IMG/VR virus record: IMGVR_UViG_3300009412_000025
Span: 1 to 28,161 of that record
DNA length: 28,161 nt
Source: a virus
Reading direction: 5' to 3' (one strand)
A program made the translations under genes and the position numbers. The notes beneath the pieces are model-generated. The model saw nothing but the letters and a program-made list of their open reading frames with translations. It made no database searches and had not been told where the DNA came from. Shown one piece after another: positions 23,242 to 26,771 of this stretch (positions are counted from its first letter, which is position 1; each line of letters begins with the position of its first letter).

Positions 23242-23513
23242 ACATAACCTGAAAAATCCGTAGAAGTTATGTAAAAGTTATGTGATTTAGCATACATGGT
23301 AGCCTTGAAACCCTTTAGAATCAAGGGGTTTAGTTTTCCCTATATAACAATACTTACATAACCTGTACCTGAGATTTTGAGATTTTTCAAAAAGTAAATA
23401 CAAATTTTATTTCAAAAAGTCGGGTGCGTAGGTGCGTTTAGACTGAAACCCTTGTTATATAGGGTTTCCCACATAACCTGAGAGAGGTGCGTTTGAGGTT
23501 ATGTAGGTTATGT
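23242..23513. repeat. Seven iteron-like elements (ACATAACCTG and its inverse)
   Basis: Forward copies: 23242-23251, 23356-23365 and 23471-23480, spaced 114 and 115 bases. Inverse copies in adjacent pairs: 23263-23272 and 23274-23283 (GAAGTTATGT, AAAGTTATGT), and 23495-23504 and 23504-23513 (GAGGTTATGT, TAGGTTATGT). The block thus reads forward, pair of inverse, forward, then forward, pair of inverse. The 23471/23495 pair can fold as a 9-base stem. Confidence 0.8.
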
Positions 23514-23533
23514 GAAGATACTTCATTTTACTG

Positions 23534-23542
23534 TGGTATACT
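23534..23542 (+). promoter_or_regulatory. Extended -10 promoter before holin-like gene
   Basis: TGG followed by TATACT (23537-23542) matches the TGnTATAAT extended -10 pattern, which does not need a good -35; none is seen. RNA would start near 23549, just before ATG 23555. Confidence 0.4.
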
Positions 23543-23554
23543 TTGCCTAAGAAA

Positions 23555-23818
23555 ATGGATGAGAGAGAAAAAAACACAGCGACGTTTATAATAAATCCAG
23601 ATGCGCCAACTTGGTATAATTACGCTGAAGGATTTGATAAATGGCGTGTTTTCCCCCGGCTTTTAATCACTCTTTATGGAGTGGCTTTTTACAGAACAAC
23701 TGAGTGGTTTATGACACTGCCTGATCCAACTAATGCCCAAAGTGCTTTTGTATCTGTGGTTGTTGGCGCTGGAGCTGCTTGGTTTGGACTCTATATTGGA
23801 GGGGGAAGCAGAAGATAA
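23555..23818 (+). CDS. Holin-like two-span membrane protein (87 aa)
   Basis: The protein has a polar N terminus (MDEREKNTATF), an aromatic amphipathic stretch (TWYNYAEGFDKW), a membrane span at about 32-54 (VFPRLLITLYGVAFYRTTEW), a short loop (PDPTNAQ), a second span at about 62-82 (SAFVSVVVGAGAAWFGLYIG) and a short basic tail. Size and two spans fit class II holins, which open the inner membrane for lysis. I recall similar VFPR...FVSVVxGA proteins beside terminase genes in marine podoviruses, variably called holin. TTG 23543 is an alternative start, but the candidate promoter favours ATG 23555. The role is inferred; a general membrane protein is possible. Confidence 0.7.
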   Translation: MDEREKNTATFIINPDAPTWYNYAEGFDKWRVFPRLLITLYGVAFYRTTEWFMTLPDPTNAQSAFVSVVVGAGAAWFGLYIGGGSRR

Positions 23819-23820
23819 CA

Positions 23821-24327
23821 ATGCCAAAAGGAACATCTGGAAATATCTCAGGGCGTAATGAAAAACATTTGACACACAAGCAAATTCGTTTTGCGAAGGA
23901 GTTTGTTTATAACGATGGGTCTAAAACGCAGACTGAGTGTGCGCTTGCTGCTGGATACGCAGAAAGTTCTGCAAAAGTACGTGCATCTGAACTCTTAAAT
24001 CCTAAGAGGTATCCACTTGTAGTTAGATTTGTCCGGGAGCTTCAGCAAGAAGTAGATAAAAAGTATGAAGTTACCTTTGCTAGACATGTTAGGAAGCTTG
24101 CCGATATTCGTGACCATGCTCTGGAGAAAGGAAACCTAACAGCTGCAGTTTCAGCAGAAGTACAAAGAGGAAGAGCAGCAGGTCTTTATGTAGAAAGAAA
24201 AGAAGTTCGTACCGGGAAGTTAGAATCTCTTAGTGAAATTGAAATTAAAAGTAGAATTGAAAAACTACTGGGAGACTATAAGCCTTTGTTGGAGATAGAA
24301 GACGGTAGTTTTACACACGAGAACTAG
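23821..24327 (+). CDS. terS: Terminase small subunit (168 aa)
   Basis: ATG 23821, two bases after the holin-like stop, is preferred over an upstream in-frame ATG at 23779 inside that gene. After a Gly/Ser-rich start, LTHKQIRFAKEFVYNDGSKTQTECALAAGYAESSAK matches the Terminase_2/TerS DNA-binding region. A helix-turn-helix lies in TQTECALAAGYAESSAKVRA. A helical oligomerisation region follows (FVRELQQEVDKKYEVTFARH, LADIRDHALEKGNLTAAVSA), then a basic and acidic tail. TerS recognises the packaging site and loads the TerL motor. No TerL follows: the next genes run the other way. Its last 17 bases overlap the convergent DUF3310 gene. The repeat block 23242-23513 is a candidate target. Confidence 0.85.
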   Translation: MPKGTSGNISGRNEKHLTHKQIRFAKEFVYNDGSKTQTECALAAGYAESSAKVRASELLNPKRYPLVVRFVRELQQEVDKKYEVTFARHVRKLADIRDHALEKGNLTAAVSAEVQRGRAAGLYVERKEVRTGKLESLSEIEIKSRIEKLLGDYKPLLEIEDGSFTHEN

Positions 24328-24681: not shown

Positions 24682-25098
24682 TCAGATATGTTTTAGTTTA
24701 TTTCCTTTTATCCAACGTCCGTGACAATCACATTTGAAGGAATAAATTAATTCTTCTTCTGTGGTTTCGTAATCAAAAGTGATTTCATCTCCTTTTTTTA
24801 TGTCCCTTTTCGCAGTCACCAGTATTACTTGGTTTGTTTCACATTGAGCAACTGGATTAAAACCCACAAAATTTGAGTTTATTTTGATCTCAGCACTTGG
24901 ATTACAATGATGATTCATGTATCCCCCTTTTGGATCTTCAATGTGCTTGTCTCCGATCTGTATAGAAGTTCTGCTGGGCTTAGAAAACTTTTCTCCCTGT
25001 AACATAAGTATTATATTTCCTTTTTTAACAGATTGATTAGCGAAAAGTCCTTTTGCACCCTTCTTTATTTTTTTTATTTTAACGTTAGCGTTGTTCAT
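24682..25098 (-). CDS. SET-domain protein lysine methyltransferase (138 aa)
   Basis: This is a minimal SET domain that uses S-adenosylmethionine to methylate lysine. Visible elements are KGAKGLFANQSVKKG at 12-27 (the SET-N strand), NHHCNPS at 62-68 (the NHxCxPN pseudoknot motif), VTAKRDIKKGDEITFDY at 94-110 with the catalytic Tyr110, and a post-SET-like CxC (C123, C125). At about 138 residues it resembles stand-alone viral and bacterial SET proteins rather than multidomain eukaryotic ones. SET is uncommon in bacteriophages, so the substrate is open: a host protein, a nucleoid protein or the phage's own proteins. It overlaps its upstream zinc-knuckle neighbour by 14 bases and shares an operon with the DNA methyltransferase. 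Confidence 0.85.
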   Translation of the reverse strand: MNNANVKIKKIKKGAKGLFANQSVKKGNIILMLQGEKFSKPSRTSIQIGDKHIEDPKGGYMNHHCNPSAEIKINSNFVGFNPVAQCETNQVILVTAKRDIKKGDEITFDYETTEEELIYSFKCDCHGRWIKGNKLKHI

Positions 25099-25268: not shown

Positions 25269-26771
25269 TTACCCCTCATTTCTTGATGTGATTATAGCCA
25301 GTCCAACGTAGTAAACGAGCTGGGGGACAACTGCGTTTCCAAGTGCTTTTAGTCTTGGAACCCTAGTTTTATCTGTTTCAACTACTCTTGGGATTCCTTG
25401 TTCCCAAGATCCGTCCAGCCATGAGGAAACCCCATTAAGACTTCCACCCAAGAAGGATTTAAATGCTTCGTGATTTTTGATGGTTTCTTCTTCAAATGAA
25501 TTTCCCCCGGAAGATCCAGCTGTTTGCCCAGATCCTTTCTCCTTTGGTGATATTCCTTGTTCGGAACGTCCATCTTGTGCATTCCCTGATTCGGTGTCGG
25601 AAACATTTTTTGTTGCTCCTCTACCATTACTACTCCCGCTAGTTTTCCCTTCTTTGCTACTTTCTCGTAGTTTGTGTTCTCTCCTGTATCTTTCCAATCT
25701 CTCGCCGCTGGAGAAGGCAACATTTTCCTGACTATTACTTCCGTTTCCAGACGTTTTTTTGGGTTGCCCTCGTCTATTTCTTTCTGACTCGGACCGTTTG
25801 CCATGCTCACCCTTGGAGTCGGCCACATCTTTTGTTTTTCCATGTGGTTCACTGCGTCTTTCAGTTTCACTCCCCATCTCACTCCTTGTTTGTTCTTCCG
25901 GGAGAACGAGCCGTTGTTCAGCTCCACGTTCTTGACCAGTCCCCCTTCGGTGTCGCTCACTCTCGGAGTCGGCCACATTTGTTCGTATTCTGGGTTGTGT
26001 ACTGCTTCCCTCAGGTTTGAGCAACCGCCTTTTTTCGCTGCCTCTGACAACTCCTCTCGTTTCCGTATCTGTCCGCTCCTCATTCCGTCCATTGCTTGTG
26101 GAGTCGGCCAGAGTTTCATTGTCTGTGGATTCACTTGTTCTCTCAAATTTGAAGGTTTCGTGCGTCCTTTTCTTGTTGTTGTCGCTTGTCTTAGTAATGC
26201 TTCCTTTGATCTTTGTGGAAGGTGATCCATTGTGTTCGGTGTCGCCCACATTTTCTGCGACCCAGAAGATTCTTTCGCGCCTGTGCGGGGCACCGATACT
26301 CGCTGCTTCAACACTAAAGCACCTTGTGGAGTAGTTCTCGCTGTCCAGATCCGAGAGAACGGAATCAAGACCGAGTCGAATATGCCCGCCCACGTTTTCT
26401 CCAATGGCGTAATCTGGACGGAGTTCTCTAATGAGTCTAAAATATTCTGGCCAGAGGTGACGCGGATCTTTTTCACCTTTTTGATGTCCTGCAACGGAAA
26501 ACGGCTGACATGGGTACCCTCCACAGATAATGTGGATTCTTCTTCTGTCAGAGATAATTCCATCTGTTTGTAATCTTTCATAACTTAACTCCTTTACGTC
26601 GTTATATATTGGCACATTCGGCCAGTGTTTGTTTAATACTTGGCATGGAAACTTCTCGATTTCGCAGAAAGCAACAGTCTCAAAATGTCCTGTGCTGTCT
26701 AGTCCTAATGAGAAGCCTCCAATACCACTAAAAAGATCTAATACTCTTAGTTTTTCAATAGTTGTGCTCAT
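25269..26771 (-). CDS. dcm: DNA (cytosine-5) methyltransferase (500 aa)
   Basis: The enzyme methylates cytosine C5 in DNA. The catalytic motifs are intact: I DLFSGIGGF (12-20), IV PCQPFSVAG (87-95, nucleophile C88), VI ENV (125-127), VIII APHRRERIFWVA (161-172), and X GNAVVPQLV (478-486). Between VIII and the C terminus, where the target recognition domain belongs, residues 173-430 are low complexity, rich in S, E, R, G and N, with six repeats of an NVADS type (NVGDT, LADST, NVADS, DVADS, NVAFS, NVSDT). That part is overprinted by a second frame. Residues 440-470 (SFLGGSLNGVSSWLDGSW) are ordinary for the family. The start overlaps the upstream stop (ATGA). It likely protects phage DNA from host restriction; its target is unknown. 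Confidence 0.9.
   Translation of the reverse strand: MSTTIEKLRVLDLFSGIGGFSLGLDSTGHFETVAFCEIEKFPCQVLNKHWPNVPIYNDVKELSYERLQTDGIISDRRRIHIICGGYPCQPFSVAGHQKGEKDPRHLWPEYFRLIRELRPDYAIGENVGGHIRLGLDSVLSDLDSENYSTRCFSVEAASIGAPHRRERIFWVAENVGDTEHNGSPSTKIKGSITKTSDNNKKRTHETFKFERTSESTDNETLADSTSNGRNEERTDTETRGVVRGSEKRRLLKPEGSSTQPRIRTNVADSESERHRRGTGQERGAEQRLVLPEEQTRSEMGSETERRSEPHGKTKDVADSKGEHGKRSESERNRRGQPKKTSGNGSNSQENVAFSSGERLERYRREHKLRESSKEGKTSGSSNGRGATKNVSDTESGNAQDGRSEQGISPKEKGSGQTAGSSGGNSFEEETIKNHEAFKSFLGGSLNGVSSWLDGSWEQGIPRVVETDKTRVPRLKALGNAVVPQLVYYVGLAIITSRNEG
25382..26581 (-). CDS. Overprinted WPTP-repeat protein within dcm, +1 frame (399 aa)
   Basis: This gene lies wholly inside the methyltransferase gene, same strand, +1 frame. 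ATG 26581 has a strong ribosome binding sequence, AAAGGAG, 7 bases upstream, hard to explain by the methyltransferase reading alone. Residues 1-110 run opposite methyltransferase motifs IV-VIII. Residues 111-340 hold six units opening with a WPTP-type motif (M111 MWATP, L157 LWPTP, M202 MWPTP, M252 MWPTP, M287 MLPSP, M326 MFPTP). They are spaced 35-50 residues, several ending in LREQVN, LREAVH or LKDAVN. The C terminus has LNPSWVEVLMGFPHGWTDL. I recall stand-alone and overlapping proteins of this WPTP...GFPxGWT type in phages, without known function. A target-recognition partner for the methyltransferase is a guess. Confidence 0.65.
   Translation of the reverse strand: MKDYKQMELSLTEEESTLSVEGTHVSRFPLQDIKKVKKIRVTSGQNILDSLENSVQITPLEKTWAGIFDSVLIPFSRIWTARTTPQGALVLKQRVSVPRTGAKESSGSQKMWATPNTMDHLPQRSKEALLRQATTTRKGRTKPSNLREQVNPQTMKLWPTPQAMDGMRSGQIRKREELSEAAKKGGCSNLREAVHNPEYEQMWPTPRVSDTEGGLVKNVELNNGSFSRKNKQGVRWGVKLKDAVNHMEKQKMWPTPRVSMANGPSQKEIDEGNPKKRLETEVIVRKMLPSPAARDWKDTGENTNYEKVAKKGKLAGVVMVEEQQKMFPTPNQGMHKMDVPNKEYHQRRKDLGKQLDLPGEIHLKKKPSKITKHLNPSWVEVLMGFPHGWTDLGNKESQE
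26589..26595 (-). promoter_or_regulatory. Ribosome binding site for the overprinted gene
   Basis: AAAGGAG reads leftward here, 7 bases before ATG 26581. In the methyltransferase frame the same bases code for Val-Lys-Glu in DVKELSYE, a non-conserved stretch before motif IV. It decides the start of the internal gene. Confidence 0.7.

Follow-up and report, generated by a model that had tools for sequence, protein, structure and literature searches.

A ten-site array upstream of the small terminase gene of marine phages, with spacing kept to the base, is a candidate packaging site and operator

Our question was what function is served by a cluster of short, two-orientation sequence elements close to the small terminase (TerS) gene of a marine phage. 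The DNA analysed, hereafter the window, is a 28,161-base IMG/VR virus record that lacks end repeats. The DNA polymerase encoded in the window shares 49-54% identity with its counterparts in phages 023Pt_psg01 and DSL-LC04 and in the Pelagibacter phages HTVC023P and HTVC027P. The TerS protein is 51% identical to its HTVC027P equivalent. The elements, with the neighbouring landmarks, promoter and genes, are listed below; inverse sites are labelled R and forward sites F.

23242..23251, minus strand: R1, ACATAACCTG, module A; slot kept in relatives, often as ACCGCACCTC
23264..23272, plus strand: F1, AAGTTATGT, module A
23275..23283, plus strand: F2, AAGTTATGT, module A, 11 bases after F1
23308..23331, plus strand: terminator-like hairpin AAACCCTT-AAGGGGTTT between modules A and B; not kept as a hairpin in the second clade
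23338..23350, plus strand: dyad arm CCCTATATAACAA, a landmark before R2; CCTATATA is conserved across clades
23356..23365, minus strand: R2, ACATAACCTG, module B; decayed in 11 of 30 arrays with the clade-1 layout
23422..23429, plus strand: F3, GGGTGCGT, second spelling
23430..23438, plus strand: F4, AGGTGCGTT, second spelling
23452..23464, minus strand: dyad arm TTGTTATATAGGG, a landmark before R3; TATA(A)GGGTTTC is conserved across clades
23471..23480, minus strand: R3, ACATAACCTG, module C
23485..23493, plus strand: F5, AGGTGCGTT, second spelling, 13 bases after R3
23496..23504, plus strand: F6, AGGTTATGT
23505..23513, plus strand: F7, AGGTTATGT, 9 bases after F6
23526..23542, plus strand: putative promoter of the TerS transcript, TTTTACTGTGGTATACT, with the -10 element at 23537-23542; assigned from the alignment of relatives, with a start codon very near
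23555..23818, plus strand: inserted small gene (ATG at 23555; 91-aa frame from TTG at 23543), phrog_10198
23821..24327, plus strand: TerS, terminase small subunit and candidate array binder (ATG at 23821); Pfam Terminase_2 at 2.9e-7, phrog_51, SF6 TerS structures

The array comprises ten sites, three inverse and seven forward, if a second spelling is counted. Their make-up is three copies of ACATAACCTG, four inverse copies reading ARGTTATGT and three inverse copies with the second spelling AGGTGCGT. The exact ACATAACCTG copies start at 23242, 23356 and 23471, and so are spaced by 114 and 115 bases. Relative to this 10-mer, the inverse AAGTTATGT copies at 23264 and 23275 have two mismatches, and the inverse AGGTTATGT copies at 23496 and 23505 have one. 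An earlier note, made from the window alone, had described these seven elements; its coordinates are all right, as is the 114/115 spacing. The count is ten because three more sites have the second spelling: a pair (GGTGCGTAGGTGCGTTT) at about 23422-23439, after the middle R, and another AGGTGCGTT at 23485. Hence, the middle ACATAACCTG copy, which had been thought to stand without a pair, does have one. Alignment with relatives shows that several spellings (AGGTTATGT, AGGTTAGGT, AGGTGCGGT or AGGTGCGTT) fill identical slots.

The elements are concentrated well beyond expectation. With one mismatch or fewer, the 10-mer ACATAACCTG has 6 matches in 28 kb, against 1.47 expected, and five of these fall within 272 bases; none of 100 shuffles reached 6 matches. 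For the best 8-mer, 9 copies are counted in the region and no more than 7 in any of 40 dinucleotide shuffles. A pattern combining the spellings matches the window 11 times, with 10 matches inside the array (272 bases) and one outside. On the plus strand of the window, GGTGCGT is confined to the array. Furthermore, the array is the window's sole gap of more than 250 bases between open reading frames, in agreement with its earlier description as the only long non-coding stretch.

Separate observations were made elsewhere in the window. On the minus strand (25269-26771 and 25382-26581), a 399-aa open reading frame with repeated MWPTP motifs is wholly nested, in a different frame, in a cytosine methyltransferase gene on that strand. 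Also on the minus strand, 24682-25098 is a gene for a small protein with a SET domain (Pfam SET, 4.5e-12), a fold typical of lysine methyltransferases. In left-end genes, near a tape-measure-like match, the short repeats AGGAACAGG, GGACAAGGA and TGGACAACT occur at 131-277 and 1285-1940, with spacings that are multiples of three.

The position of the array is shared by related phages. Relatives were collected from viral contigs by TerS, 235 at first and more later; the non-redundant set consists of 91 closer and 74 HTVC027P-like sequences. Among close relatives whose upstream sequence is long enough, nearly all have the array before TerS. Exceptions include L038, L006 and L041, where other coding sequence directly precedes TerS and the array was not located. 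The distance from the first base of the last F site to the TerS ATG is 52-55 bases in most relatives, with about 45 bases between array and gene. The earlier note had placed the elements beside TerS. This is true of most other relatives, but in the window the 91-aa frame (23543/23555-23818) intervenes. That gene separates TerS from the promoter in both the window and relative L005, with the array still beside the promoter. The 91-aa gene has 443 homologous stretches in IMG/VR, and at 78 loci with homologues, which are not close relatives, no TerS was found in the stretch examined. It is a small auxiliary gene that moves between phages.

Between the last site and TerS, the alignment of relatives reveals a TTACT...TATAAT-like stretch that stops a few bases short of the start codon. 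We regard this as a putative sigma70-like promoter directly downstream of the array. Note that it escaped a simple consensus scan. In L008-L022 and others, only a few bases separate the putative -10 box from the TerS start codon, and such proximity suggests that the TerS mRNA is leaderless or nearly so.

Logically, an array at a promoter might be purely an operator. It would then be bound by a regulator from phage or host, perhaps TerS, which sets the timing of the TerS transcript and maybe also of divergent genes on the left, with no packaging role. That the array in most relatives ends close to the putative -35 element, a short distance before TerS, fits this explanation, as does the divergently transcribed left neighbour in L009. 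However, the genes left of the array differ between relatives and no adjacent regulator gene was recognised within the window. Moreover, ten sites over 272 bases, with fixed spacers of 82 and 65 bases, exceed the expected need of one promoter. We consider a solely regulatory role unlikely.

Spacing between the sites is conserved among relatives. The layout R-21-F-11-F-82-R-65-F-8-F-42-R-13-F-11-F-9-F is base-exact in 18 non-redundant arrays. A further 11 arrays lack only the middle R; seven of these are otherwise exact and four have one base less. One more array (L020) deviates slightly from the layout. In the L170 group the array is a variant with the last module unchanged. Between genomes of identical spacing, the spelling of the sites varies. 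In a second clade (L054, L060, L076 and others) the landmarks CCTATATA and TATAAGGGTTTC are kept, the sites read AGGTTAGA or AAGTGAGG, and the R-13-F-10-F core is preserved (seen in G006). Where TerS genes are more distant (67-75% identical), arrays read by eye consist of TCTAATGTT/CATCTAAG (L282-L288) or ACTGAGGTT (L289, L290), and the landmarks are again present. A separate array, of six CACTAGGAA-like copies immediately before TerS, is present in HTVC023P, a more distant phage. In the HTVC027P-like clade TerS is present, and there is no comparable array directly upstream. Note that the count of the best 8-mer, compared with shuffles, is significant in the window and not in many relatives with mixed spellings. 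Since this statistic is weak in such relatives, our argument rests on the conserved spacing. The available literature passages on the HTVC023P-type pelagiphage group make no mention of such an array.

The same comparisons bear on an RNA element, in which the region would act as a structured leader or attenuator. Two hairpins can indeed form, at 23308-23331 and 23445-23468. Conversely, Rfam has no match anywhere in the window, and the second clade, inspected by eye, keeps the DNA landmarks and sites but not the hairpins. In addition, the putative TerS promoter is downstream of the array. We rejected this explanation, as very improbable, because of the negative Rfam result and because the second clade does not keep the hairpins.

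The earlier note had also pointed to replication origins, which can use iterons, and to a possible switch in GC skew at the array. Here, a phage initiator would bind the sites and melt the AT-rich stretch between modules B and C. The sites are indeed clustered and iteron-like, with inverted repeats and an AT-rich spacer at 23380-23420, and the origins of phage SPP1 consist of direct repeats with an AT-rich region (PMC6316719). Nevertheless, skew does not single out the array: it follows gene orientation in the window and in complete relatives, tracking the coding strand with no independent switch at TerS in HTVC023P, HTVC027P, 023Pt or G003. The polymerase, helicase and primase genes are more than 7 kb away in the window, and the single observed swap, described below, exchanged the array together with the TerS helix-turn-helix (HTH) segment. 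An origin is therefore improbable. Even less probable is attP, a phage attachment site to which an integrase would bind at arm-type sites. Clustered sites in two orientations around an AT-rich core are similar in outline to such a site. However, profiles PF00589 (tyrosine integrase) and PF00239 (resolvase) match none of six records, comprising the window and five relatives, two of which are about 60 kb. We rejected attP for this lack of an integrase or resolvase.

We turn now to TerS, the protein expected to recognise packaging signals. The protein belongs to the Terminase_2 family, with an SPP1/SF6-like HTH domain. A profile from the TerS alignment matches structures of the SF6 TerS DNA-binding domain (4zc3, 2cmp and 3zqp, at ~2e-4) over residues 14-62.

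A natural exchange connects the sites to this domain. Relatives L286 and L289 have homologous flanks: identity is 83-89% on the left, and on the right is 92%, rising to 94-100% from about codon 100. Between these flanks, positions 1090-1536 of L286 have no blastn match to L289. This interval contains the array, the promoter and the first TerS codons. While TerS residues 62-160 differ by 3%, the HTH stretch 42-58 differs at 7 of 17 positions. The sites also differ in type, being TCTAATGTT-like in L286 and ACTGAGGTT in L289. We conclude that the array, the promoter and the 5' part of TerS have been replaced jointly, and that new sites arrived with a new recognition helix. Note that this is one event, and that the promoter was carried along too.

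Covariation across the wider set of relatives was less specific. In a partial Mantel test there was no HTH-specific signal; after mutual correction, most TerS segments show a correlation with element distance (partial r is 0.30 for residues 41-60, 0.26 for residues 61-80 and 0.32 for residues 81-100). The claim of HTH-specific covariation was dropped, the signal being equal in other TerS segments. Residue 52, which ranks 9 of 89 columns, was also considered as the sole setter of that type. Near-identical helices are found with different sites (TATGT in L022 and TAGGT in L008), and a similar H52 helix occurs with TCTAA sites (L284 and L286). Residue 52 alone, although suggestive at first, was rejected; it is contradicted by L282-L293 and is not top-ranked. 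TerS as a protein is the likely reader of the sites.

Taken together, conservation of spacing, position, precedent in the SPP1 family and the one joint replacement lead us to favour a dual function. We propose, with a probability of about 0.58, that the array is the TerS recognition site: a packaging-initiation region, similar to pac or cosB, that doubles as an operator for the TerS transcript. Counting against this are the unspecific covariation, the similar helices paired with different sites, the HTVC027P-like TerS genes without an array, the SF6 domain that bound without sequence preference, and the fact that the joint replacement is one event. The earlier note had already suggested a cos or pac site linked to TerS. 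That idea is now the best-supported reading, given that position and base-exact spacing are kept upstream of TerS and that the array was once swapped with the HTH-coding part. We infer TerS binding, cutting, autoregulation and the role of the dyad.

In such a mechanism, a TerS ring or multimer, with several HTH domains, would bind the ten sites at once. The spacing is rigid, with about one site per helical turn in clusters, an inverse site 13 to 21 bases away and modules 40 to 80 bases apart. This could wrap or loop the DNA into a single complex. The complex would then position the large terminase subunit (TerL) for its initial cleavage, perhaps at the conserved CCCTATATA / TATAGGG dyad; naming the dyad CCCTATATAACAA / TTGTTATATAGGG as the cut site is a guess. 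Occupancy of the array, beside the promoter, would limit synthesis of TerS. A broader proposal, which we make tentatively, is that the array is part of a packaging-specificity system. The geometry of the ten-site TerS array would be frozen to the base and site sequence would be free to change type. Related marine phages would thus form packaging types, which swap the array and the TerS DNA-binding domain as one cassette.

Contig ends were also considered. Both ends of G018 (~60 kb) are inside TerS and their overlap is near-identical, indicating that the contig is close to a complete circle. For G003 (~60 kb), a contig end is found ~5 kb downstream of TerS. The ends of these contigs are at different places, neither in the array, and give no pointer to a fixed end there, assembly breaks being weak evidence. 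A pile-up of contig ends was likewise rejected as evidence for a terminus. Ends upstream of TerS are spread out, with a mild excess within 300 bases and no shared coordinate.

The proposed site can be compared with known packaging systems. In SPP1, pac overlaps the TerS promoters and the start of the gene, and is bipartite, with pacL and pacR contacts around the cut site (PMC6316719). According to a study cited in that paper, SPP1 terminase represses its own synthesis. As with the pac sites of SPP1 and SF6, TerS is from the same Pfam family and has an HTH domain, and our candidate recognition region would be at the TerS promoter, a putative one assigned by alignment. The difference is that our candidate has ten short, base-exact sites, wholly upstream of the gene in close relatives. 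Furthermore, cutting and headful packaging belong to the SPP1/SF6 system, whereas ours is a candidate site. For SF6, binding of the purified DNA-binding domain to pac DNA showed no preference for sequence (PMC4737164).

A second precedent is cosB of the lambda type (lambda, 21, N15 and Monarch). Packaging specificity among lambda, 21 and N15 is set by the recognition helix and the R sites, which vary jointly (PMC4669245); in our phages, helix and sites differ together in one pair, L286/L289. Lambda cosB also has R sites in mixed orientations (PMC4669245), near the TerS gene, like our candidate TerS sites. Hence, the earlier view that the layout (forward and two inverse, repeated) is unusual for either a packaging site or an origin holds in part: mixed orientation has this precedent, while the rigid, ten-site layout in three modules is more elaborate than the examples found. 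In contrast to our array, lambda-type sites have one or three R sites, with or without a site for IHF, and fixed cohesive ends. There, TerL directly follows TerS; in these marine phages TerL is ~8 kb downstream, as seen in relative G001, and the window ends before TerL would appear. As a separate observation, the noncoding gaps between TerS and TerL contain many copies of a dispersed repeat, (G)CTTGCTTGTCTTTTCTATCTAAAA (L202/L203 in G002, and L198 in G003). The copies are partly inverted pairs, often before terminator-like hairpins. HTVC027P and 023Pt have GCTTG-rich repeats in the TerS-TerL region. Among HTVC023P-type pelagiphages, which by DNA polymerase and TerS are the same phage group, the TerS-adjacent array of HTVC023P has another sequence; the HTVC027P-like TerS clade is unlike the window in its lack of an upstream array.

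How TerS recognises DNA in headful phages has been called unclear and controversial (review PMC9611059). In vitro, the homologous SF6 TerS seemed to bind regardless of sequence (PMC4737164). The many natural variants with the same geometry and different sites, together with one exchange of array and HTH segment, are a ready experiment on whether and how such a TerS reads DNA. The array would also supply a widespread group of ocean phages with candidate packaging signals, none being described in the literature passages. Most likely, this marine phage array, with its base-exact spacing and changing site letters, serves both to mark phage DNA for packaging and to control the TerS gene.
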